From positions 1 through 35,944 of the forward strand of contig JAFGAW010000294.1 in the NCBI GenBank assembly GCA_016933475.1: a DNA stretch of 35,944 nt. Reading direction: 5' to 3'. The position numbers and the translations under genes were made by a program. This stretch comes from Thermoleophilia bacterium (GTDB lineage Bacteria > Actinomycetota > Thermoleophilia > UBA2241). Positions 9,280-20,556 of the stretch are shown here, piece by piece; within the stretch, counting starts at the first letter, position 1; the number at the start of each line of letters is the position of its first letter. The notes under the pieces were generated by a model. That model was not told the origin of the DNA and ran no database searches. It saw nothing but the letters and a program-made list of their open reading frames with translations.

Positions 9280-9327
9280 TACCCACTTCGCCGCCGCCGC
9301 GTGTACGCCCTGCCGTGCAAGTGGGTA
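9280..9327. promoter_or_regulatory. Long-spaced dyad TACCCACTT / AAGTGGGTA between gre and ferritin
   Basis: A perfect 9-bp inverted repeat (9280-9288 and 9319-9327) is separated by 30 nt, midway between two divergent genes. Read outward on each strand it gives AAGTGGGTA, followed by TATGGT-type (gre side) or TAGAAC-type (ferritin side) sequence. Each arm could therefore hold a -10 element of matching type (GGGTA, as in SigB-like promoters) or an operator half. Function is inferred. Confidence 0.4.
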
Positions 9328-9411
9328 GAACGAGAGCGTCCCGTGCGCCCATCCGGCTGCGGGACCTCGCGGAGCGAGACCGGGACACCCCGACGAAGAG
9401 AGGTCGATGAC

Positions 9412-9921
9412 ATGCTCGACACGAGGATGGAAGAGGCGATCAACCGTCAGATCAACGCCGAGATCTACTCCGGTTACCTGTACCTCTCGATGGCCGCGCA
9501 GTTCGCCGAGCTCGGCATGGCGGGAGGGCAGAACTGGATGACGGTGCAGTACCAGGAGGAGCTCTCCCACGCGCAGAAGCTCTTCGACTACGTGATCGAG
9601 CGTGGCGGCCGCGTGACGCTTGGTCCGATCGAGGGTCCGCAGACGGAGTGGAAGACGGGCCTCGACATGTTCGAGGAGGCCTACGCCCACGAGCAGAAGG
9701 TGACGGGGTTGATCAACGACCTCACGACGCTGGCGATCGATCTGAAGGACCACGCCACGCACAACTTCCTCCAGTGGTTCATCGCCGAGCAGGTCGAGGA
9801 GGAGGCGACGGCCAGCGACATGGTGCAGAAGTTCACCATGGCCGGCGAGCACCCGGCCGGCATGTACCAGCTCGACAAGGAGCTCGCGGCGCGCGTCTTC
9901 ACGCCGCCGGCGGCGGAGTAA
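9412..9921 (+). CDS. ftn: Ferritin (non-haem iron storage)
   Basis: This 169-residue bacterial ferritin would assemble into a 24-subunit shell that oxidises Fe(II) and stores iron in the cytosol. The four-helix core shows the ferroxidase ligands: AEIYSGYLYLSMAAQF (Glu near residue 16), QEELSHAQKLFDYV with the E-x-x-H motif, and AEQVEEEATA on the last long helix. NAEIYS with an adjacent Tyr is typical of FtnA. The start is the ATG at 9412 with an AGAGAGG site upstream. A longer frame from 9301 crosses the promoter region. Length fits the family. There is no haem-ligand Met as in bacterioferritin. A strong hairpin follows the stop. Confidence 0.95.
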   Translation: MLDTRMEEAINRQINAEIYSGYLYLSMAAQFAELGMAGGQNWMTVQYQEELSHAQKLFDYVIERGGRVTLGPIEGPQTEWKTGLDMFEEAYAHEQKVTGLINDLTTLAIDLKDHATHNFLQWFIAEQVEEEATASDMVQKFTMAGEHPAGMYQLDKELAARVFTPPAAE

Positions 9922-9966
9922 GCCGAGAGGCGAGCGCCCGCGAAGGGGGCGGCTGCGACCGAGGTC

Positions 9967-10014
9967 GATCGCGGGGCCGGGGGCCGGCGAGAGCCGGCCC
10001 CCGGCCCCGCGATC
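9967..10014. terminator. Perfect 22-bp hairpin, bidirectional terminator
   Basis: Arms 9967-9988 and 9993-10014 are exact reverse complements around a GAGA loop. The hairpin lies between the convergent ferritin and ABC-2 permease genes and touches the latter's stop codon. It is entirely GC-rich at the core with no following U-run. Confidence 0.75.
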
Positions 10015-10780
10015 ACGTCACGTCGCGGCGCATGGTCGTGTAGACGGCGGCGATGCTCACCACGGCGATGTAGCCGAGGCTGACGAGGAAGGCCTCGGGG
10101 CGCGAGAGACCGACCTCCGCTCCGGTGCTGACCGTCACGCCGCCGGTCACGACCTGCTGGAGCGCCGCGAAGGGAAGGTACTGGCCGACCGCCGGCTTCA
10201 GGCTGACGACGATGTTCTCGCCGGCCAGCGCCCAGATCAGCGTCCCCGCCACGGTCGCCGGCTGATTGCGGAAGAGCGCCCCGAGGCCCACGCCGAGAGC
10301 GGCCATGAGTCCGGCGGCCAGCAGGACGAGCGCGAGAGTCTCCGCCACCCCGTCCTCGAAGAGGAAGCTGGTCTCGAGCTCCAGGCTGCGCACCTCGTAG
10401 CCGATGATCGCGGTCAGCGTCACCAGGGAGCCGACGAGCGCCAGCACGACGATCCCGACGCCGAAACACACGAAGAGCTTCACGGCGATGACGCGGGCAC
10501 GGCGCGGAGTGACGAGGTAGCTGTAGGTGATCGTCCCGTGGCGGTACTCGTTGGTCATGCTCAGGATGCCGAAGACGAGGCCGAGCAGCGGGACGACCGT
10601 CACCCCGGTGACGAGGAAGCCGAACCCGCCGACAGTCTCGTCCTCCAGGACTTCCGCCGGGGCGAAGATCAGGATCAGGACCGCCGGGGCCAGGCCGACG
10701 AGCACGGCGGCGATGAGCAGCCCGAGGGCCGTGCGCGTGCTGCGCAGCTTCAGGAGCTCGGCGGCGACGAGGTCGATCAC
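10013..10780 (-). CDS. ABC-2 type transporter permease
   Basis: This 255-residue integral membrane protein has about six hydrophobic segments and no ATPase motifs. The layout fits the ABC-2 permease family: a short N-terminal helix with LLKLRSTRTALGLL, then the signature-like LSMTNEYRHGTITYSYLVTP. That second stretch corresponds to the conserved E-x-R-x-G-T cytosolic motif. Further helices end in YIAVVSIAAVYTT. The GTG at 10780 has AGGAGG 8 nt upstream and overlaps the ATPase stop by 4 bases (GTGA), so the two are translated together. The partner ATPase is immediately upstream. It is probably an exporter; the substrate is unknown. Confidence 0.88.
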   Translation of the reverse strand: MIDLVAAELLKLRSTRTALGLLIAAVLVGLAPAVLILIFAPAEVLEDETVGGFGFLVTGVTVVPLLGLVFGILSMTNEYRHGTITYSYLVTPRRARVIAVKLFVCFGVGIVVLALVGSLVTLTAIIGYEVRSLELETSFLFEDGVAETLALVLLAAGLMAALGVGLGALFRNQPATVAGTLIWALAGENIVVSLKPAVGQYLPFAALQQVVTGGVTVSTGAEVGLSRPEAFLVSLGYIAVVSIAAVYTTMRRDVT

Positions 10781-11676
10781 GACTCCGGCCTCCTGGTGCC
10801 GGCGATCTCGAGGAACAGGTCCTCGAGGCTCGGGCGCTCGGTGATCAGCTCGTGGAGGACGGCCCCGCACTGGTGGGCCGCCTCGCCGACCTCAGGGGCG
10901 CTGGGGCCACGGATCGCGAGCGCGTCACCGAGCCGGTTGACCGCGGCGCCGCGCTCCTCGAGGTGCCGCTGCAGGAGCTCGGCCTGCGGGCTGCGCAGTC
11001 GTACGACCGGGCTCGCGCCCGCGTCCAGCGAGGCCAAGGGCCCCCTCGCGACCAGGCGTCCTCTGCTGATGATGAGCACGTCGTCGACGGTCTGCTCGAC
11101 CTCGGCGAGCACGTGGCTCGAGACGAGGATCGTCTTGCCCTCGGCGGCCCGCGCCCGCAGGAAGGTGCGCAACCAGCGCATGCCCTCCGGGTCGAGCCCG
11201 TTCGCGGGCTCGTCGAGGAGCAGGAGGTCGGGGTCGCCGAGCAGCACGCAGGCGAGGGCGAGGCGCTGGCGCATGCCGGTGGAGTACCCTTTGACCGCGC
11301 GCCGCGCGGCGCCCTCGAGCTCGACGAGCTCGAGCACCTCGGCGACGCGCGCCGCGGGGATCCCCGAGGCGCGGGCGACGACGCCCAGGGCGTTCGCGCC
11401 CGAGCGCCCGGGGTGGAACCCCGAGGCGTCGAGCAGGGCGCCGACGCGCGTCCACGGCCGGGGCAGGTCCCGGTACCGTCCGTCGAAGACCGCGATACTG
11501 CCGGCCGTCGGGCGTACGAGGTCGACGATCATCCTCAGGGTCGTCGTCTTGCCGGCGCCGTTGGGACCGAGGAAGCCGGTGATGCTGCCCTTCTCCAGGG
11601 CGAAGGAGACGTCGTCGACGGCGAGGACGCGCTTGCCGAAGCGCTTGCTCAGGTGCTCGACGTGGACGACGGGCAT
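10777..11676 (-). CDS. ABC transporter ATP-binding protein (drug-export type)
   Basis: This 299-residue ATPase couples to the ABC-2 permease encoded directly downstream. Walker A is GPNGAGKTTT, the signature is YSTGMRQRLALA and Walker B is LLLLDEPANGLDP. The H-loop is LVSSHVLAEVE. The C-terminal ~80 residues form the small extra domain common in DrrA/CcmA-like ATPases (VVRLRSPQAELLQ, ending PSLEDLFLEIAG). The ATG at 11676 follows GGAGG with good spacing. Such pairs export antibiotics, lipids or peptides, but here there is no neighbouring regulator or biosynthetic gene to suggest which. Confidence 0.93.
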   Translation of the reverse strand: MPVVHVEHLSKRFGKRVLAVDDVSFALEKGSITGFLGPNGAGKTTTLRMIVDLVRPTAGSIAVFDGRYRDLPRPWTRVGALLDASGFHPGRSGANALGVVARASGIPAARVAEVLELVELEGAARRAVKGYSTGMRQRLALACVLLGDPDLLLLDEPANGLDPEGMRWLRTFLRARAAEGKTILVSSHVLAEVEQTVDDVLIISRGRLVARGPLASLDAGASPVVRLRSPQAELLQRHLEERGAAVNRLGDALAIRGPSAPEVGEAAHQCGAVLHELITERPSLEDLFLEIAGTRRPES

Positions 11677-11876
11677 GAGGCCTCCGGGTCGTTGCGAACC
11701 TCATGGTACCGGATGGCGGCGCGTCGGGTCGGGGCGACCGGGCAGGGTCGAGAGGGCAGGACGTGCGCGCGCCTCGGCGGCGCGCACCGAGGGCACAGTG
11801 GCGGTCCGGGGCGACGCGCGTCGGCCGACCCGGCGGCGCACGCTCACGACAGGAGCGCCGCGATCACGTCCAAGAG

Positions 11877-11892
11877 CCACCCGACCGGGTGG
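11877..11892 (-). terminator. Hairpin after the small membrane protein gene
   Basis: CCACCC-GACC-GGGTGG (6-bp stem) lies just past the stop of the minus-strand gene ending at 11904. A second, 8-bp stem (11763-11770 with 11780-11787) lies further downstream, before the ABC ATPase gene. Neither has a U-tract. Confidence 0.33.
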
Positions 11893-11903
11893 GCGGTGAC
11901 GCC

Positions 11904-12365
11904 TCAGGTGCTGCCCTGTGGCGGATCGCTCATGAAGGAGAGCCAGAAGTAGAGGCCGGCGGCGCCCATGATGAGGCCGGCGACGGCGTAGTCGAGCCGG
12001 GCCGCGCGGCGAAGGGCGCCCCAGAGGCCGAGGGCCCCGGCGGCCAGGGCGAGGACATCGAGGGCGAGGACCAGGTAGCGGCTCGTCCCCTGGGTCATCA
12101 GGAAGGGACCACCGAGCACGCCGAAGAGACCGGCCACGAGGGCGACCGGTGCGGCGCGCCCGGCCAGGGCCGCGAGCGGGCCGAGTCGTCGCTCGGCGGT
12201 GACCGCCGCTGCGAACCCGAGGTCGGGGTCGGGCGCAGGTGTACGGTCGGCCGGCGGCGCCGTTCGTCGATCGAGTGGAGGCGCCGGCGGTGGTGAGGCG
12301 TCGGGTGAGGGCGCGCCCGCGCTCGAGCGCGGGGCCTGGCCGTCGTGTCCGTCGTCGGGGGTCAC
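11904..12365 (-). CDS. Small membrane protein of unknown function
   Basis: This 153-residue protein has a disordered Pro/Ala/Asp-rich N-terminal third and then three to four hydrophobic helices: APVALVAGLFGVLGGPFLM, YLVLALDVLALAAGALGLWG and YAVAGLIMGAAGLYFWLSF. No family is recognised. The frame extends back to 12470, but GTG at 12365 is preferred because TACACT (12372-12377 on the minus strand) ends 6 nt before it. That suggests a leaderless message, and there is no Shine-Dalgarno for any start. The tail of small residues plus helices is common in uncharacterised actinobacterial membrane proteins. The gene is real by codon usage and hydrophobicity, but the start is uncertain. Confidence 0.6.
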   Translation of the reverse strand: MTPDDGHDGQAPRSSAGAPSPDASPPPAPPLDRRTAPPADRTPAPDPDLGFAAAVTAERRLGPLAALAGRAAPVALVAGLFGVLGGPFLMTQGTSRYLVLALDVLALAAGALGLWGALRRAARLDYAVAGLIMGAAGLYFWLSFMSDPPQGST

Positions 12366-12371
12366 GCGGAG

Positions 12372-12377
12372 AGTGTA
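12372..12377 (-). promoter_or_regulatory. -10 box (TACACT) for a possibly leaderless gene
   Basis: On the minus strand TACACT ends 6 nt before the GTG at 12365, and no ribosome site is present. The arrangement mirrors the rlmN and SulP starts. No convincing -35 was seen. Confidence 0.35.
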
Positions 12378-12524
12378 GCTGGAGTCGCCGGGTGGGGCCT
12401 CACCCAGCGGCGGGTTCGCGGCTTTGGCCCGAGGCGTCACCGGGCGGCGGGGCGCGGCGGGTGGGCTCACGGTGCGGGTACGGGCGCCGGTGCGGGCCCC
12501 ACCGCGTGGGAACGGCAGCCGGCG

Positions 12525-14789
12525 TCAGCCGACGACGACGATGCCCAGGTACCCGTCGACGGTCAGCGGGTCACCGGTGTGGATGAGCTCGGTGGCTCCC
12601 GGGACCCCGGTGACGCACGGGAGGCCGTACTCACGGGCGATGATCGCCCCGTGGATCAGCATGCCGCCGCGGCGCTCGACGATGCCGGCGGAGAGAGGCA
12701 CGACGAAGGTCATGCCGGGCTCGATGGCGTCGCAGACGAGGATCTCGCCCTCCTCGAAGGCGCGCAGGTCATCGGGAGAGGAGATGACGCGGGCGATGCC
12801 CACGCCGACGCCGGGCCCGGCGGGCTGGCCGACGAGCTGGCGGGCCTTGGCGACGGCGCCCGACGGCGACGCGCCTGGGCCTGCGGCGTCTGCAGCAGGC
12901 TGCGGCGCGGCGGGGTGGGGTCGCCCGAGAGGCGAGGGCAGGGCGACCGCGCGCGGCGCGAAGCGCCCGCCGGTCTCGAGACCGCGGCGCCCCATCTCCT
13001 CGAGGGCGGCCGTCAGCTGCGCCTCGATGCGGTCGAGGTAGGCGTTGTCGTCGTCGCGCAGCCGCCAGCCGGCGCGGGCCAGATCGAGGAGGCCGGCCGC
13101 GCGCTCGCGCTCGTCGTCGCCGCCGCCCGCGGCCTGGAGGTAGCGCCGCTCAAGGTCGTCGCGGTCGGGGGCCGGCATCGCCGGCCTGCGACGAGATGCT
13201 GCCGTGGCGTCTTCGACGCCGTCGCCTGGCCCCGCGGCCGACGTCGCAGGGCGATCGGCCGTGGGGCCGGTCACGGCAGCGGACGCCGCGGACCCGGCCG
13301 CCGGAGCGCTCGCCAGCCGCTCGACGACGGCGGCCATCGTCGCGCGTTCGCGCTCGCGGCCGGGAGAGCCGGGTGGCTCGAGGCCGAACTCGTCGAGGAA
13401 GGCCTCGAGCTCAAGGGCGAACGCCTCGTCGCCGGCGTCGTCGCCGGCCTCGCGCCGCAGGTGGGCGAGCCCGGCGAGAGCGGCGTTGCGGCGGGTGCTG
13501 AGCATCGGCGTGCCCGACAACAGGGCGACGAACTCGTAGGGGTCGTCGGGGCGCAGGGCGTCGTTGTAGGCCTGTCCGAAGAGGCGCACGGCGTGGGCGA
13601 AGGGGATGAAGTCACGGGTGTAGACGTCGACCCAGCCGTCGTGCGCCTGCTTGCGCCGCTCGAGCTCGGCGAGCAGGCCGCCGTCGTCGAGCTCGGCGAG
13701 TGGTACGGCGGCGAATGCAGCGGCTTCGGCGGCCATCGCCGGGAGCGCCTCCTCCTCGATGCGCCGGCGCAGCACGACCAGGCTGTCGTAGCTGCGCCGC
13801 AGGCCGAGGTAGGCGGCGCGCCCGTCGTCCTCGGCGCCGCCCGTCGTGATCGGTCGCGACTGCAGAGTGAAGAGCTCTTCGCCGCGCAGGGTCCACTCGA
13901 CGTCCTGCGGGCCGGCGAACGAGCCCTCGGCCTCGCGCGCGAGACCGTGGACGCGGTGCAGATCGTCGCCGGTGAGCGGCGGCCGGCTTCGCCGCCGGCG
14001 GGGTAGCGGCACGAGGCGCACGCCGGCCCCGGCCGGCGCCACCATTTCCTCGCGTGCCGCGGCGTGGTGCTCGAGCACCACGCCGCTGTCGCGCTCGAGC
14101 ACCCAGCGGTCGGGCTCGACCGTGCCGTCGACCAGGCCCTGGTTCAGGCCGTGGACCGCCTCGACCAGGGCCTGGTCGTCACGCTCGGGGTGGCGGCTGA
14201 AGGCGACGCCGGAGCGCTCGCCGGCGATGATCTCCTGGACCACGACCGCCATGCGGCTGCGCAGAGGGTCGAGGCCGAGCTCGCGGCGATAGAGCAGGGC
14301 CGCGTCGGACCACAGCGAGGCCCACACCAGACGGACGTGCTCGAGGATGGCGTCGAGGCCGCGCACGTTGACGTACGACTCGTGAAGGCCGGCGAACGAG
14401 GCGCCTGCCGAGTCCTCGCCCGGCGCCGACGAGCGCACGACGACCGGTCCTTCGTCGGCGCGTGGGCCCAGCGCGGCAGCCAGGGCATCGCGGAGCGTCG
14501 CCGGTAGCGGCGTCGCAAGGAACAGGTTGCGGATGCGCAGGGCGGCGTCCCAGATCTCTTCCCAGCGCATGTCGGCGACGTCCTTGCGCTCGAGCTCGAA
14601 GAGGATGCGCGCCTGCAGCGGGCCGTCGACGAAGGCCTCGTACGCCGCCGTGGTGACGACTGAGAACGGCGGCACGGCGAGGCCGGCGCGGCTGAGCTTG
14701 GCGAGCGCCAGCGCTTTGCCGCCGACGTACGGCGCCACGCGGGCGTCGACCTCGGCCGCGGGCAGGACGAGCGGCACGGGCGCGTTCAT
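12525..14789 (-). CDS. PEP-synthase-like phosphotransferase without PEP-binding barrel
   Basis: This 754-residue protein has three parts. An N-terminal ATP-grasp domain (about 1-335) shows YVGGKA (21-26), VRSSAPGEDSAGASFAG (118-134) and LQSRPI. The middle is helical (about 340-640), interrupted by an Ala/Pro-rich linker. The C-terminal swivelling phosphohistidine domain (about 660-754) has catalytic His713 in GGMLIHGAIIAREYGLP. The PEP/pyruvate TIM barrel of PpsA and PpdK is absent, as in rifampin phosphotransferase and phenylphosphate synthase. The enzyme likely moves a phosphate from ATP via His713 to an unknown acceptor bound by the middle region. The ATG at 14789 overlaps the flavin-barrel gene's stop (ATGA). 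The frame upstream of it is a shadow. Confidence 0.82.
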   Translation of the reverse strand: MNAPVPLVLPAAEVDARVAPYVGGKALALAKLSRAGLAVPPFSVVTTAAYEAFVDGPLQARILFELERKDVADMRWEEIWDAALRIRNLFLATPLPATLRDALAAALGPRADEGPVVVRSSAPGEDSAGASFAGLHESYVNVRGLDAILEHVRLVWASLWSDAALLYRRELGLDPLRSRMAVVVQEIIAGERSGVAFSRHPERDDQALVEAVHGLNQGLVDGTVEPDRWVLERDSGVVLEHHAAAREEMVAPAGAGVRLVPLPRRRRSRPPLTGDDLHRVHGLAREAEGSFAGPQDVEWTLRGEELFTLQSRPITTGGAEDDGRAAYLGLRRSYDSLVVLRRRIEEEALPAMAAEAAAFAAVPLAELDDGGLLAELERRKQAHDGWVDVYTRDFIPFAHAVRLFGQAYNDALRPDDPYEFVALLSGTPMLSTRRNAALAGLAHLRREAGDDAGDEAFALELEAFLDEFGLEPPGSPGRERERATMAAVVERLASAPAAGSAASAAVTGPTADRPATSAAGPGDGVEDATAASRRRPAMPAPDRDDLERRYLQAAGGGDDERERAAGLLDLARAGWRLRDDDNAYLDRIEAQLTAALEEMGRRGLETGGRFAPRAVALPSPLGRPHPAAPQPAADAAGPGASPSGAVAKARQLVGQPAGPGVGVGIARVISSPDDLRAFEEGEILVCDAIEPGMTFVVPLSAGIVERRGGMLIHGAIIAREYGLPCVTGVPGATELIHTGDPLTVDGYLGIVVVG

Positions 14790-15235
14790 CGCATGTGGAG
14801 CTCGGTGACCGTCTGGAAGCGCCGCACGAGGTAGTACGTCTCGACATCGAGGGCGAGCAGGGCGGTCGTGGGTGCGGTCGCGAAATCGGTGAGGTGCGGG
14901 TGGCGGGCGACGAACCGGACGCACGCCTCGTCACGTGCCTCGCCCTCGAGCTCGGCGACCGGGCCGACCGCGGTGACGGCGGTCGCGCGATGGAAGTCGA
15001 GGTCGGCGTCGGAGCGGCTGTCGATGAGCATGGCGACGCGCGGCTCGGCGGTGAGCAACTGGAACTTGCGCGTCGCCCGCGTCGTCGCGAAGGTGAGGCG
15101 CCCGAGGTCGTCGGTGGCGGCGAAGGCGACGAGGCTAGCGTAGGGCCCGCTCTCGCCGTGCGTCGCCAGAACGCCGAGGCGCTGGCGCGAGAGGAGCTCG
15201 CGCAAGAGGTCGAGTGTGACGTCGCGTTCGTCCAT
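14786..15235 (-). CDS. Pyridoxamine-5'-phosphate-oxidase-like FMN/F420 split-barrel protein
   Basis: This 149-residue protein has the split beta-barrel of the PNPOx-like family. LLSRQRLGVLATHGESGPYA gives the first strands, SLVAFAATDDLGRLTFATTR the substrate-side strands, and TRKFQLLTAEPRVAMLID the conserved helix and strand that contact the flavin phosphate. Members bind FMN, F420 or haem, and many remain uncharacterised. The open frame extends to 16807, but that part shadows the MttB-like gene. The ATG at 15235 is the first that fits the family, although its ribosome site is poor. It sits 80 bp after the methyltransferase and is coupled by 4 bases to the phosphotransferase. Cofactor and substrate are unknown. 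Confidence 0.82.
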   Translation of the reverse strand: MDERDVTLDLLRELLSRQRLGVLATHGESGPYASLVAFAATDDLGRLTFATTRATRKFQLLTAEPRVAMLIDSRSDADLDFHRATAVTAVGPVAELEGEARDEACVRFVARHPHLTDFATAPTTALLALDVETYYLVRRFQTVTELHMR

Positions 15236-15315
15236 GGTCCGTGGCCGGCGACGCCAGTCGCCGCCCACGGGAAAGCTTATCCGATGTCGGGGACGGCGCC
15301 GCCGTCGGGCGTCAC

Positions 15316-16713
15316 TCAGCGCCGTCCTTGTGCGAGCGCGGCCAGTGTCCTCGAGACCTCGTCGTCGAGGGCGAACGGCGGGTCGGCGGCCTGAAGCTCC
15401 GCGAGCCGCTCGCGGAGCCGCTCGAGCAGCGTGCGGCCACCGGCGGCCGACCAGCGCTCGTGCGACGCCTGGTCGATCAGGTCCGGTTGCCAGAAGAGCC
15501 GGTGCCGCTCGCGGGTGAGGCGGCGGCCGAGATGGTCGCCGCCCGGCCCGACGGCGGCGACCTCGGCGAAAGCGAAGTCCTCGTCTTCGCTCGGAAGCTC
15601 GGCGAGGAAGGCGCGGGCGTAGCCCGCGATCTCGTCGCCGAGCACCATGCCCTCGAGCGCGCCTTGCAGGCCCGACTCGAGGTAGCCGACGTCGTGCAGC
15701 AGGGTGGCGCGCGACAGGGCGCCGAGCAGCGTCGAGACGGCGAGCTCGAGCGACCACTGCTCGTCGAGCAGCTTGCTGTCGGAGTGACCCGCGTACGACC
15801 AGCTGGGCAGGTCGTAGTGGGCGACGAGATCGAGCTGTGCCTGATTGGCGAGGAAGACCCCGGGCGAGTTGTAGGGGTCGATGGCGGTGCGCATGTTGAG
15901 GACGCCGACTCCGGCCCCACAGACGAAAGGCGCGCCCGGCGCGGCGAGCTGGTGCAGGACGAGGCCGGCCAGCATCTCGGCGTTGACGACACTGATGCAG
16001 GCGGCGAGCGAAGCCGGGCCGCCGGAGCCCGCCGAGACCGAGCCGGCGAGCACGAGCGGTACGCCGAGGCGGGCGCAGGCGATGATCTTGTCGCAGGCCA
16101 CCGGGTCGAGTCGCAGCGGCGGCGACGACATGGCGAGAGAGAGGAGGCTGTCGCGCTCGCCCGCCGCGGCGGCCATCTCCTGCATCACCGCGAGCGACTC
16201 GCCGCCGAAGGGACTCGAGACGACGACCGGCTTGTGCGTCGCGCCGAGCATGACGGCGAGCTGCGCGAGGTCGACGGTTGCGGGCGGGGCGTCTTCGGGC
16301 AGCCCCATCGACATGACGAAGTCGAGGTGAGGGAGCTGCTCGGCGAGCGCGGCCGCGGCACGCACGTCGTCGAGTCGCGCGCGGCGGCGCTCGCCGCTGC
16401 GCGCGTCGCGCACGTAGAGACAGTCGGGCCCGGTGCCGAAGAAGGTCGAACCCCGGCCGAGCTCGAGCGGCGCGGTCGCGCCGCCGCGCGGTCGCACCGT
16501 GAAGCGACGCGGCACGCTGTCGAGGGCGGCGTCGACCATCGCGGCCGGGAAGAAGGCGCGCGTGCCTTCGAGCCGCGCGCCGTGCGCGGCGCAGAGAGCG
16601 CGCGCCTCGCCGCCCTTCAGCTCGACGCCGACCTCGGCGAGCAGGCGTAGGGTCGCCGCATGCGCTCGCGCGCACTGCCCTTCGTCCCAGACGCTCAGTG
16701 TGGCGTGAGTCAT
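15316..16713 (-). CDS. MttB-family (trimethylamine methyltransferase-like) protein, non-pyrrolysine
   Basis: This 465-residue TIM-barrel protein is related to MttB/MtgB. Those enzymes transfer a methyl group from trimethylamine, glycine betaine or other quaternary amines to a cobalamin carried by a small corrinoid protein. Family-like stretches are RLLAEVGVEL, FGTGPDCLYVRD, LVLAGSVSAGSGGPASLAAC, NAEMLAGLVL and the PYNSPGVFLANQAQLDL region. The frame has no internal TAG, so pyrrolysine is not used, as in MtgB-type homologues. The ATG at 16713 has only a weak ribosome site. No corrinoid protein or reductive activator gene is nearby, so either it borrows one encoded elsewhere or it does a different reaction. 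It heads the operon with the flavin-barrel protein and phosphotransferase. Confidence 0.85.
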   Translation of the reverse strand: MTHATLSVWDEGQCARAHAATLRLLAEVGVELKGGEARALCAAHGARLEGTRAFFPAAMVDAALDSVPRRFTVRPRGGATAPLELGRGSTFFGTGPDCLYVRDARSGERRRARLDDVRAAAALAEQLPHLDFVMSMGLPEDAPPATVDLAQLAVMLGATHKPVVVSSPFGGESLAVMQEMAAAAGERDSLLSLAMSSPPLRLDPVACDKIIACARLGVPLVLAGSVSAGSGGPASLAACISVVNAEMLAGLVLHQLAAPGAPFVCGAGVGVLNMRTAIDPYNSPGVFLANQAQLDLVAHYDLPSWSYAGHSDSKLLDEQWSLELAVSTLLGALSRATLLHDVGYLESGLQGALEGMVLGDEIAGYARAFLAELPSEDEDFAFAEVAAVGPGGDHLGRRLTRERHRLFWQPDLIDQASHERWSAAGGRTLLERLRERLAELQAADPPFALDDEVSRTLAALAQGRR

Positions 16714-16879
16714 GCCCGTCCCGTCTCTTCGGCCCCCCGTGCACCGTCGTGCCGCCCGGCGCCGCTCGAGGCAGCGTCATTGAATGCGTGCGACCGGCCG
16801 GAGTCAATTCAGCCGTGAGGCGACCCCAGGCACGGTGCCGGGAGGGCGGCTCCGAACTCTCCCCAGCGCCTCCCGCACG

Positions 16880-16898
16880 GCGCTCACACAGTGAGCGC
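16880..16898. promoter_or_regulatory. Inverted repeat GCGCTCAC-N3-GTGAGCGC, candidate operator
   Basis: This is a perfect 8-bp dyad with an ACA spacer. It lies 167 nt upstream of the MttB-like start and about 200 nt upstream of the PotD-like start. Its size suits a dimeric repressor. It could control one or both divergent units; no regulator gene is adjacent. Confidence 0.45.
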
Positions 16899-16967
16899 GG
16901 CCTGCTCGAGAGGACCGGGGACTACGTGAAATTGTGTGAAGATGCGCGCGCTATTCGCACGACACAC

Positions 16968-16995
16968 TTGCATTCGGAGCCAGTTTGCGTAATTT
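16968..16995 (+). promoter_or_regulatory. Promoter candidate for potD-like gene
   Basis: TTGCAT (16968-16973), a 16-nt spacer and TAATTT (16990-16995) lie in the only AT-rich island of the region. They predict a leader of about 95 nt before the ATG at 17097. Confidence 0.42.
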
Positions 16996-17096
16996 TTGTC
17001 CCCACAGGACCTGTACGTAGGCCGTGCGCGCCGTGTCATCGGGGGAGGTCGTGCGAGTCCGGGTGAGCGCGGGTCATCATCGGTGAGGGGGAGGCT

Positions 17097-18302
17097 ATGG
17101 AAGAACGGGACATCGTTAACCAGAATCAGAAGGAGCTCGTGGGTCTCTGCAAAGAGGCCAAGCACGGCGGCATCACGCGGCGCCAGTTCGTCGAGCGCGC
17201 GCTGATCCTCGGTCTCTCGGCCGGTACGGTCGGCGCCCTCGTCGGCGCCTGCGGTGAGGAGGACGCCGAGCCCGAGGCGCCGCAGGTCGAGATGCCGGTC
17301 ATGGACGAGACCATGCCGGAGGAGATCACGGTCTACAACTGGACCGACTACATGGACCCGGACATCCGCAAGCAGTTCAGGGCGGAGACCGGGATCAAGG
17401 TCAACGAGACCTACTTCGCGAGCAACGAGGAGCTGCTCGCCAAGCTGCGCGCCGGGTCGACCGGCTACGACATCATCGTGCCGTCCGACTACATGTGCCA
17501 GATCATGATCATGAGCGAGCTTCTGCAGCCGCTCGACATCGACGGCTACATCCCCAACTTCGCCGGGGTGGCCGAGCCGCTCAAGGCGCCGACCTTCGAC
17601 AACCCCGCCGACCAGGGCGGCATGAAGTACAGCGTCCCGTACTTCTACGGCACCACGGGCTACGCGACCCGCACCGACAAGGTGTCGCCGACGCCGACCG
17701 ACTGGACGCCGCTCTTCGATCCGGCCAACAGCGGCAAGATCCAGCTGCTCGACGACGAGCGTGAGTGCCTCGGCATGGGCCTCAAGTCGCTCGGCTACTC
17801 GGCCAACACCAAGGACCAGGCCGAGCTCGACGAAGCGACGCAGAAGCTCATCGACCAGAAGCCGCTGGTCAGCACCTACGACTCGGTCAACATGAAGCGC
17901 GCCATCGTCCAGGGCGTCCCGTACGTGATGTGCTGGGACGGCGACGTGCTCATGGCCATCGACGCGCTGGGCGGCGAGGACTACCAGGACATGGTCGACT
18001 GGGTGCTGCCGTCCGAGGGCTTCGTCCGCTGGACCGACGCCATGTCGATGCCCGTTTCTGCGGCCAGCCGGTACGGTGGTCACCTGTTCATGAACTACAT
18101 CCTCGACCCCGAGGTCGCCGGCCAGAACGCGAGCTGGGTGTGGTACCTGTCGGCGGTCCCGGCGTCGCGCGACTTCACCGACCCCTTCGCCCTCATCCTC
18201 ACCCCGAGCGACGAGGACATGGCACGGTCGGAGGAGCTCGAAGACCTCGGCGAGTTCGCCGCCGCCTATCAGATGGCGTGGACGAAGGTGAAGAGCGCCT
18301 GA
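17097..18302 (+). CDS. PotD-like polyamine-binding lipoprotein, Tat-exported
   Basis: This 401-residue periplasmic-type binding protein resembles PotD/PotF. ITVYNWTDYMDPDIRKQF, the GYDIIVPSDYM stretch and VPYFYGTTGYA match the spermidine/putrescine-binding family, as does the C-terminal lobe with FMNYILDPEVAGQNA. The N-terminus has a twin-arginine motif (ITRRQFVERALIL), a hydrophobic segment and a lipobox ending GAC near residue 51. It is thus probably folded before export and lipid-anchored. The ATG follows a strong GAGGGGGAGG. No permease or ATPase of a polyamine ABC system is present in the window. Its ligand may be a polyamine or another amine, which would fit the divergent methylamine-type methyltransferase, but that link is inferred. 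Confidence 0.9.
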   Translation: MEERDIVNQNQKELVGLCKEAKHGGITRRQFVERALILGLSAGTVGALVGACGEEDAEPEAPQVEMPVMDETMPEEITVYNWTDYMDPDIRKQFRAETGIKVNETYFASNEELLAKLRAGSTGYDIIVPSDYMCQIMIMSELLQPLDIDGYIPNFAGVAEPLKAPTFDNPADQGGMKYSVPYFYGTTGYATRTDKVSPTPTDWTPLFDPANSGKIQLLDDERECLGMGLKSLGYSANTKDQAELDEATQKLIDQKPLVSTYDSVNMKRAIVQGVPYVMCWDGDVLMAIDALGGEDYQDMVDWVLPSEGFVRWTDAMSMPVSAASRYGGHLFMNYILDPEVAGQNASWVWYLSAVPASRDFTDPFALILTPSDEDMARSEELEDLGEFAAAYQMAWTKVKSA

Positions 18303-18329
18303 CACGGATCTGCTGATCGCGACGACCGT

Positions 18330-18366
18330 AAGGGGCGGCCGGTGGCAAAGCCACCGGCCGCCCCTT
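18330..18366. terminator. Perfect 17-bp hairpin, bidirectional terminator
   Basis: Arms 18330-18346 and 18350-18366 pair fully around an AAA loop. It lies between the convergent potD-like and ychF genes. The stem begins AA and ends TT, but no longer U-run follows. Confidence 0.72.
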
Positions 18367-18472
18367 GCTCGTTCCCACCTCGGTCCACCGACCGGCACGT
18401 CGCGCAGCGGACGCAGCGCAGACCGGCCGGTCGCGCCGGCGGCAGGCCGGCCACGCCGCGCCGCACCCGTGC

Positions 18473-19570
18473 TCAGGCCGTGTGCATGAAGTGGATCACG
18501 TCGCCGTCGCGGACGATGTAGTCCTTGCCCTCGGTGCGCAGCAGGGCCTTCTCGCGCGCGGCGGCGAACGAGCCGCAGGCCAGGAGGTCGTCGATCTGCA
18601 CGACCTGAGCGCGTACGAAGCCGCGCTCGATGTCGGAGTGGATCCGGCCCGCGGCCTGCCGCGCCGTCGAGCCCTGCGGCAGCTGCCAGGCGCGCGACTC
18701 ACTCGATTTGAAGTCGCCGGTGAAGAAGGTGAGGTAGCCGAGCACGTCGTAGGCCGCGCGCAGCACGACCTCGACGGCGCCGGCGGCGACGCCGAGCTCG
18801 GCGCGGAAGGCGGCGGCCTCGTCGGCGTCGAGGTCGGCGAGCTCGGCCTCGAGCCGCGCGGCGACGGCGACCACGTCGTCGCCGCGCTCCCGCGCCCAGG
18901 CGACGAAGGCGGCGTGCTCCTCCATGGCTTCGCCGGGCGTCGCCTCGTCGTCGATGTTGAGCACGAAGAGCACGGGGCGGTCGCTCACGAGAGCGAGCTC
19001 GCGGTAGAGCGCCTCGTCCTCGCGCTCGCGGGCGACGTCGCGCGCCCGGGCGCCGTCGCGCAGGGCGGCGGTGAGCCCCTCCAGGGTCGCCAGCTCCCTC
19101 TGCGCTGCCTTGTCTCCGCTGCGTGCGGCCTTCACCGTCTTCTCCATGCGCCGTTCGACCAGCTCGAGGTCGCTGAGCACGAGCTCGGTCTCGACGAGTT
19201 CGACGTCGGCGCGAGGATCGACGGGGCCGTCGGCGCCGGCGATCTCGGGGTGCCGGTAGCAGCGCACGACGTGGGCGACGGCGTCGACGCCGCGGATGTC
19301 GGCGACGAAGCGCGCGCCGAGGCCTTCACCCTGCGAAGCACCCTCGGCGAGGCCGGGGATGTCGACCACATCGATCGTGGCGTAGACCTTCTTGGGGGTC
19401 TGCAGGACCTCGTCGAGCCGGTCCAGCCGGTCGTCGGGCACGCTGACGACGCCGCGGTTCGACTCGGCCGACGTGTAGGCATAGGCGGTAGCGGCGGCGT
19501 GGCCGTGGGTCAGGGCATTGAAGAGCGTGGTCTTGCCCACGTTCGGCAGCCCGACGATCCCGAGTCTCAT
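18473..19570 (-). CDS. ychF: YchF/Obg-like GTPase or ATPase
   Basis: This 365-residue protein is the widely conserved YchF (OLA1) P-loop NTPase, which binds ribosomes and prefers ATP over GTP. G1 is GLPNVGKTTLFNAL (residues 7-20), G3 is DIPGLAEGASQGEGLG, and the base-recognition motif is NIDD rather than NKxD, as expected for this family. A coiled-coil insertion lies in the middle (LSDLELVERRMEKTVKAARS). The C-terminal TGS domain ends with DYIVRDGDVIHFMH. The ATG at 19570 has GGAG 8 nt upstream and overlaps the M28-like gene's stop by 4 bases, making it the last gene of a three-gene operon. The open frame reaching 19876 shadows the previous gene. Confidence 0.95.
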   Translation of the reverse strand: MRLGIVGLPNVGKTTLFNALTHGHAAATAYAYTSAESNRGVVSVPDDRLDRLDEVLQTPKKVYATIDVVDIPGLAEGASQGEGLGARFVADIRGVDAVAHVVRCYRHPEIAGADGPVDPRADVELVETELVLSDLELVERRMEKTVKAARSGDKAAQRELATLEGLTAALRDGARARDVAREREDEALYRELALVSDRPVLFVLNIDDEATPGEAMEEHAAFVAWARERGDDVVAVAARLEAELADLDADEAAAFRAELGVAAGAVEVVLRAAYDVLGYLTFFTGDFKSSESRAWQLPQGSTARQAAGRIHSDIERGFVRAQVVQIDDLLACGSFAAAREKALLRTEGKDYIVRDGDVIHFMHTA

Positions 19571-20556
19571 GTCGGCGGCTCCAGAGTGCTGGTCAGCAGT
19601 TCCTCGAGCAGGCGCGCCCCGTCGCCGAGCTGCCGCTCGAGCAGGCCGGTGTCGCCGGCGAGCAGACGGCGCACGGTGTCGCGGGGGGTGCCGGCGACGG
19701 CGGTGGGTTGCTCTGCGTCGACTCGTCCGTCGGTGACGGTGTCGGCGCTCACGAGCCCAGCGTACGGGATCCCGGCCGCGGCGAAGGCGCCGTGCTCGCC
19801 GCCGGCCGCGGCGATGGCCTCGGTCAGCGTCACGTCGCTGCGCTCGGCGGCGATCGCCAGCGCGCTCTGCAGCCACGTTGCACCGTTCTCGGGGCCGTAG
19901 GCGACCAGCTCGGCGCCGCCGGCCACCGCGTCGAGGTCGATCATGCCGAGGAGGGCGTCGCGCTCGAAGTCCTCGAGGTGCTCGACGAAGAACGACGCTC
20001 CGGCCGCCTCCTGCCAGTGGGCGCCGAAGGCGACGAAGACGATCGTGCTCGGCGTCTCGACCTCGCGCAGACGGCCGGCCATCTCGAGCAGCAGACCGAT
20101 GCCGGTGGCGTTGTCCGTGGCGCCCTGCGACCCCGGCACGGTGTCGTAGTGCGCTCCGACGACGAGCGTCGTGCCCGAGGTCCCCTCCTTCGTGACGATG
20201 ATGTTGGCCGAGAGCAAGTGGTCGGCAGGGTCTCCGACGAGGAACTCCTGCGCTCGCGTCGGGTAGCCGAGCTGCTGGAAGGCGAGGGTGACGAAGGCCC
20301 GCGCCTCGATGTCGCCCCAGCTCCCCGTCGGGCGCGGGCCGGCGCGACGCGCGAACTGGACGGTCTCGGTCGCGGCGAGGAGTCCGTGATCGGAGGCCGC
20401 GACGTCCTGAGAGGCGCGCGAGTCGTATGAGGGCTGGCCGCAGCCGCCGGTGCCGAAGGCGGCCATCAGGCTCACTACGGAGAGCGCCAGTGCCGCGAGG
20501 AAAGCGTGCCGCGGAGGGCGGCGGTCATGCAGTGTCGTGTGCGGACGTCCGCTCAC
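19567..20556 (-). CDS. M28-family peptidase-like lipoprotein, catalytic Glu pair replaced
   Basis: This 329-residue protein has a signal with a hydrophobic helix (FLAALALSVVSLMAAFG) and a Cys at residue 39 preceded by TGG, a possible though atypical lipobox. The body is M28 aminopeptidase-like. GAHYDTVPGSQGATDNATG supplies two zinc ligands (His136, Asp148), then come LIDLDAVAGG and GGEHGAFAAAGIPYAG. The usual GAEE motif, with the base Glu and a zinc-ligand Glu, reads GAHWQE (His180-Trp181), so activity may be lost or altered. The GTG at 20556 overlaps the PAP2 stop by 4 bases. The protein is probably extracytoplasmic. Its role beside the PAP2 enzyme and YchF is unknown. Confidence 0.82.
   Translation of the reverse strand: MSGRPHTTLHDRRPPRHAFLAALALSVVSLMAAFGTGGCGQPSYDSRASQDVAASDHGLLAATETVQFARRAGPRPTGSWGDIEARAFVTLAFQQLGYPTRAQEFLVGDPADHLLSANIIVTKEGTSGTTLVVGAHYDTVPGSQGATDNATGIGLLLEMAGRLREVETPSTIVFVAFGAHWQEAAGASFFVEHLEDFERDALLGMIDLDAVAGGAELVAYGPENGATWLQSALAIAAERSDVTLTEAIAAAGGEHGAFAAAGIPYAGLVSADTVTDGRVDAEQPTAVAGTPRDTVRRLLAGDTGLLERQLGDGARLLEELLTSTLEPPT

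Follow-up and report, generated by a model that had tools for sequence, protein, structure and literature searches.

A PNPOx-like protein and a rifampin phosphotransferase-like dikinase encoded as a conserved gene pair, with ultraviolet-repair genes as neighbors in several phyla

The dikinases that resemble rifampin phosphotransferase (RPH) form a large group with mostly unexplored substrates (PMC4844700, excerpt). A mechanism based on a swiveling phosphohistidine has been published for RPH (PMC4844700, excerpt) and for HpeHI (PMC12167813, excerpt). RPH itself (e.g., 5hv1 and 5fbs) is a single barrel-less chain composed of an ATP-grasp domain, a helical acceptor domain, and a C-terminal swivel domain with an invariant phospho-accepting histidine. 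HpeHI, CreHI, and phenylphosphate synthase share this ATP-grasp and swivel-histidine small-molecule chemistry, but they are two-protein enzymes of aromatic catabolism. Phosphoenolpyruvate (PEP) synthase and pyruvate phosphate dikinase also have the ATP-grasp and phosphohistidine domains. Here we describe a gene pair in a 35,944-nucleotide stretch of a Thermoleophilia bacterium (contig JAFGAW010000294.1, positions 1 to 35,944; referred to here as the window), in which a gene for a PNPOx-like protein overlaps a gene for a 754-amino-acid (aa) protein that resembles RPH. The dikinase superfamily is already known; the literature searched yielded no account of this branch, its partner, or its setting. 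No description of the pair was returned by those searches, although the spelling of one query would miss the usual apostrophe form. The features of the pair are as follows.

12525..14789, minus strand: putative three-domain small-molecule dikinase (ATP-grasp, helical acceptor, swivel phosphohistidine), 754 aa; PF01326 and PF00391, fold closest to RPH
12651..12653, minus strand: codon of the phospho-accepting histidine H713 of the dikinase (GGMLIHGAIIARE); coordinate computed from the start at 14789
12954..13826, minus strand: region for the middle (acceptor) domain, residues 322 to 612, predicted to be all-helical and RPH-like; own fold, Z 13.3 to RPH
14786..15235, minus strand: PNPOx-like split-barrel protein, 149 aa, probable partner binding flavin mononucleotide (FMN); PF01243, conserved pairing
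14786..14789, minus strand: ATGA, 4 bp shared by the stop codon of the PNPOx-like gene and the start codon of the dikinase gene, read from the sequence

The open reading frame (ORF) listed for the dikinase (12525 to 14924, with a GTG at 14924) is overextended. We placed the natural start at the ATG at 14789 because it forms the ATGA overlap with the PNPOx-like stop and because conserved sequence begins soon after it. In the resulting 754-aa numbering, the phospho-accepting histidine keeps the number (H713) that it had been given in an earlier note on this DNA. The protein matched PPDK_N (PF01326; 231.8 bits) and PEP-utilizers (PF00391; 74.4 bits), and H713 was invariant in all 52 dikinase relatives of the alignment over which residue invariance was counted. 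In the AlphaFold2 model (52 sequences; pLDDT, 86.7; pTM, 0.86), the ATP-grasp domain aligned with 5hv6 over 300 residues at 3.0 Å, and the HpeI structure was among its closest folds. Residues 325 to 601 of the model are helical, no strand occurs between residues 313 and 651, and the swivel domain is the last part of the chain; the protein therefore lacks a PEP/pyruvate barrel. A barrel in the middle region had been set beforehand as the finding that would refute the earlier note, which had proposed a barrel-less phosphotransferase of the RPH kind. The predicted fold agrees with that proposal.

The best match of the whole model was RPH (5hv1; Z 33.4; 643 residues) with a root mean square deviation (rmsd) of 24 Å, a value that probably reflects a different placement of the domains in the model. 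When the middle domain was folded alone (pLDDT, 86.0), RPH entries occupied the five best rows (Z 12.7 to 13.3; rmsd, 4.6 to 5.3 Å; 236 to 250 residues). The top score of 13.3 extended over 245 residues, and the row after these five had a Z of 9.9 over 120 residues. The middle domain would thus be of the RPH type, an assignment that is borderline according to the tool's own note on helical folds. With an ATP-grasp domain, a swivel phosphohistidine domain, and this predicted barrel-less RPH-type middle, the large protein has the domains of the three-domain small-molecule dikinases of the RPH-like superfamily. We consider it very likely to act as a small-molecule dikinase.

The large protein scored 264 of 999 bits on the curated RPH model (NF041857) and 272 of 740 bits on the PEP-synthase model (TIGR01418), both below the cutoff. 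Its acceptor domain (approximately 290 residues) is divergent from that of RPH. Stogios et al. reported that Arg666, Glu667, and Lys670 of RPH surround the phosphate as a network and that even a distant clade retains this block (PMC4844700, excerpt). Two Streptomyces RPHs read GYREYPKYG at the R-E-x-x-K block (catalytic block 9). All 52 relatives of the window protein had R-D-(D/N)-D-N in its place (R-L-R-D-D-D-N in the window helix), where the two motifs were equated by sequence position and not by superposition. R578, D579, D581, and N582 of this motif were invariant, as were H399, R402, Y408, N409, and R434 of the acceptor domain. We infer from the replaced block that the acceptor differs from rifampin; the invariant polar residues make a small charged or polar acceptor the likelier candidate.

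The upstream protein matched PNPOx_N (PF01243) with 54 bits (cutoff, 28.1). Its invariant R56-K57 stands at what we take to be the position where the FMN phosphate is usually bound, and the protein probably binds FMN. It shares the PNPOx_N domain with split-barrel proteins such as general stress protein 26, which is among its relatives in the PDB, and the HOZ heme proteins. It differs from these in its size (149 aa) and in being paired with a dikinase, and it differs from true pyridoxine phosphate oxidase in that the match spans only approximately 50 residues.

To survey the gene neighborhood, genome contigs were scanned with the large protein; from the 100 relatives obtained, the 80 best loci were retained (many of these stretches are short). 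A PNPOx-like homolog lay directly upstream of the dikinase on the same strand in 77 of the 80 loci. The join, measured from the start nearest to the stop, was within 30 nucleotides in 74 of these 77, and 46 had the exact 4-bp overlap. Going by record titles, the groups that carry the pair include Desulfobacterota-type bacteria, Nitrospirota, Planctomycetota, Acidobacteria, Gammaproteobacteria, Gemmatimonadetes, Thermoleophilia, Bacillota, and one archaeon (Methanotrichaceae). Among the best 15 of 305 plasmid records, the pair was also found on a plasmid of Ilyobacter polytropus, where its annotation goes no further than "pyridoxamine 5'-phosphate oxidase family protein" and "PEP/pyruvate-binding domain-containing protein." The two genes clearly form a module, paired beyond chance. 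The regular PNPOx-like neighbor and a different gene context set the window dikinase apart from RPH. The genetic coupling suggests that the PNPOx-like protein is a subunit of the dikinase or carries out a redox step on the same acceptor. Six loci have an additional PNPOx-like gene, diverged and on the opposite strand, immediately downstream of the dikinase (L015:10199-10630; also L020, L021, L023, L024, and L072).

Outside the window's lineage, the pair recurs beside genes linked to light damage. Neighbor proteins were clustered, exemplars were named with Pfam, and loci were counted by tblastn. The recurrent families were NmrA-type SDR, 2-thiouracil desulfurase with DUF1722 (the RudS architecture), DNA photolyase, CIA30, UvdE, flavin amine oxidase, DPRP (photolyase-related protein), DUF1295, DUF1365, cyclopropane synthase, lipocalin, DUF2177, and DUF2878; MsrA, glutathione peroxidase, and peroxiredoxin were among the further neighbors. 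Photolyase was present in 12 loci, DPRP in 8, and UvdE in 6 (any of the three, 23), with SDR in 17 and RudS in 15. Photolyase, DPRP, UvdE, or RudS was found in 30 loci, and at least one of 14 light-stress-type families was found in 46. RudS genes reportedly often occur in light-responsive operons with photolyases (PMC11417400, excerpt), and blue light induces photolyase operons and cyclopropane synthase in Vibrio cholerae (PMC5241685, excerpt).

We compared these counts with the copy numbers of the same families in whole genomes, using the window's own genome and 49 loci that were picked before the results were seen, with preference for long and diverse loci. The flank was taken as the locus length minus 2,200 bases, nearness was judged by comparing coordinates by hand, and genome copy numbers were entered manually from tables. 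Photolyase was in the locus in 10 of the 49 genomes (0.147 expected), DPRP in 5 (0.068), UvdE in 4 (0.061), and RudS (tRNA 4-thiouridine desulfidase) in 13 (0.13). Any of photolyase, DPRP, and UvdE was present in 17 (0.28 expected). A photolyase at L014 was left uncounted (i.e., a tblastn match in the locus, with no PF00875 match in its genome), while a photolyase match below the cutoff in G081 was conservatively counted as a copy. The linkage of the pair to photolyase, UvdE, or RudS is therefore beyond chance in other phyla and was not seen in the window's lineage. In its C-terminal part, the 854-position model PRK05865 ("sugar epimerase family") is also matched by the dikinase swivel domain, and SDR is the commonest other neighbor of the pair. 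At G085:C34:71272-72468, a match to UvdE adjoins one to DUF1722, and each was reported within an open frame of 433 aa, possibly a fusion of UvdE with DUF1722.

We propose that the pair encodes a photo-oxidative-stress small-molecule dikinase of the RPH type with a flavoprotein partner, a reading to which we assign a probability of roughly 60%. By analogy with RPH and HpeHI, the overall reaction would most likely be ATP + acceptor → AMP + Pi + phospho-acceptor, via H713. ATP would bind the ATP-grasp domain, and H713 on the swivel domain would take the beta-phosphate, with release of AMP and Pi. The swivel domain would then move to the helical middle domain and phosphorylate a small acceptor. 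The PNPOx-like protein, probably FMN-bound, would be a subunit or would make or use the acceptor. In other phyla, the module would belong to the gene set for UV and light (photo-oxidative) stress, and such a role is probable in most carriers. More tentatively, the two proteins may be a previously undescribed light-responsive enzyme, present in many bacterial phyla and some archaea, that makes or disposes of a single small phosphorylated compound (a derivative of flavin, pterin, or lumazine, for instance) protecting against sunlight damage. With the module, one RPH-like branch gains a consistent partner, an acceptor motif of its own, and a candidate physiological setting (sunlight damage); the search for the substrate is therefore narrowed and can be pursued in cultured carriers. 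If the proposal is correct, the light-stress response of bacteria would include an unrecognized step besides photolyases and RudS.

Several observations weigh against this proposal. In two loci (L056 and L057), no PNPOx-like gene lies upstream of the dikinase (L055, the third of the 80 without one, starts at a contig end). The middle domain resembles RPH in structure alone, Foldseek by itself gives no support (E, 1.4), and hhalign found no sequence-level link to two Streptomyces RPHs (probability, 0.5%). The light role is carried over from relatives in other groups, with dikinases 39 to 54% identical. In the genome of the window, the single photolyase lies on a different contig and DPRP, UvdE, and DUF1722 are without a match, and no light gene is annotated within 9 kb on either side of the Ilyobacter pair. 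Photolyase, DPRP, UvdE, and RudS were all absent from the stretch examined in 50 of the 80 loci, many of them short. No light regulator was identified in a Pfam tally of 140 of the 330 unnamed neighbor ORFs, in which 25 of the 148 matched families were inspected and included no MerR or B12-binding family. Finally, the enrichment P values treat loci as independent; the Poisson values are too small because the loci share ancestry, and 19 of the 30 positive loci are of the Desulfobacterota type, with 9 spread over Nitrospirota, Gammaproteobacteria, Planctomycetota, and Acidobacteria (all labeled by hand from record titles). The loci without light genes, the setting in the window's lineage and in Ilyobacter, and the kinship with general stress protein 26 would fit a general redox or cofactor-maintenance enzyme (e.g., for repair or salvage of a flavin, B6, or a nucleotide-like cofactor) that reached stress islands with co-traveling genes and does not itself act on light damage. 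We give this account perhaps one chance in four, since it sits poorly with four unrelated light-linked families that are each enriched approximately 65-fold or more beside the pair and whose arrangement and strand vary between loci.

The remaining explanations take the dikinase to be a known type of enzyme or the pair to be part of a longer operon. An aromatic-compound dikinase initiating phenol breakdown would belong to the same chemistry class, and the closeness of the HpeI fold to the ATP-grasp domain speaks for it. We nevertheless consider it improbable, as HpeHI and phenylphosphate synthase are two-component enzymes (PMC12167813, excerpt) whereas the window protein is one 754-aa chain encoded beside stress genes in its relatives, and no aromatic-breakdown family was among the recurrent neighbors. 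Inactivation of rifamycin is more improbable still, even though RPHs are the closest solved structures: the score is below the cutoff of the RPH model, the R-E-x-x-K block is replaced in every relative, and the RPH gene records consulted lack a PNPOx-like neighbor in the short stretch examined. A gluconeogenic PEP synthase or pyruvate phosphate dikinase, which has the ATP-grasp and phosphohistidine domains in common with the window protein, is refuted by the barrel-less architecture and by a score far below the PEP-synthase cutoff. The longer operon had been proposed in the earlier note, which joined the pair to the gene upstream of it in a possible methylated-amine or corrinoid-linked step.

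15316..16713, minus strand: MttB-family methyltransferase, 465 aa, without a pyrrolysine codon; neighbor outside the module; PF06253

All three genes are present on the minus strand with the types that had been claimed for them (matches to PF06253, to PF01243, and to PPDK_N with PEP-utilizers). Their shared strand and the 80-bp gap (15236 to 15315) between MttB and the PNPOx-like gene favor a three-gene pathway, as does an MttB gene 4.8 kb from the pair at L010. The gap can form hairpins that are not significant (z, -1.8). The neighborhood survey that had been suggested as a check upheld the coupling of the PNPOx-like gene and the dikinase and removed MttB, which adjoined the pair in 0 of the 80 loci. 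The closest MttB orthologs (64 to 67%) lie in three family members, at a locus where the window's ABC ATPase and ferritin genes recur (with ychF in two of the three) and the pair is missing; the genomes of these members have weak or no dikinase matches. Conversely, the close relative L054 preserves the order of ychF, two PotD-like genes, the pair, the ABC ATPase, and ferritin, and has no MttB. Because this site can hold MttB without the pair and the pair without MttB, we ruled MttB out as a third member of the module. With 39 MTTB matches in the 2.49 Mb of the window's genome, we read its position beside the pair as a coincidence. The three-gene pathway is thus largely refuted; the link to methylated amines or corrinoids gained no support, and the neighbors of the relatives point to UV and light-stress repair instead.

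Other searches of the window were negative. PADLOC gave no antiphage defense match for the dikinase, the PNPOx-like protein, or MttB. No structured RNA reached Rfam gathering scores in the window, and no sigma-70-like promoters were found between 12000 and 17200.

The MttB protein scored 222 bits on PF06253 (cutoff, 25), and its best match among solved structures was glycine betaine methyltransferase. We rejected it as a pyrrolysine-containing trimethylamine methyltransferase, since the gene has no in-frame stop (no TAG) and the protein scored 242 of 525 bits on TIGR02369, below the cutoff; it is still a member of the PF06253 superfamily. Within the window (9301 to 19582), ychF, the ABC ATPase, and ferritin form a frame that is syntenic in the family; within it, the presence of PotD, MttB, a peptide-type binding protein (identified by eye from its translation), and the pair varies. 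The genome as a whole probably uses pyrrolysine, because it has a pyrrolysyl-tRNA synthetase match (G000:C103:16992-17717; 310.9 bits; cutoff, 178.15) and because a single in-frame TAG occurs in each of 6 of the 39 MTTB matches.

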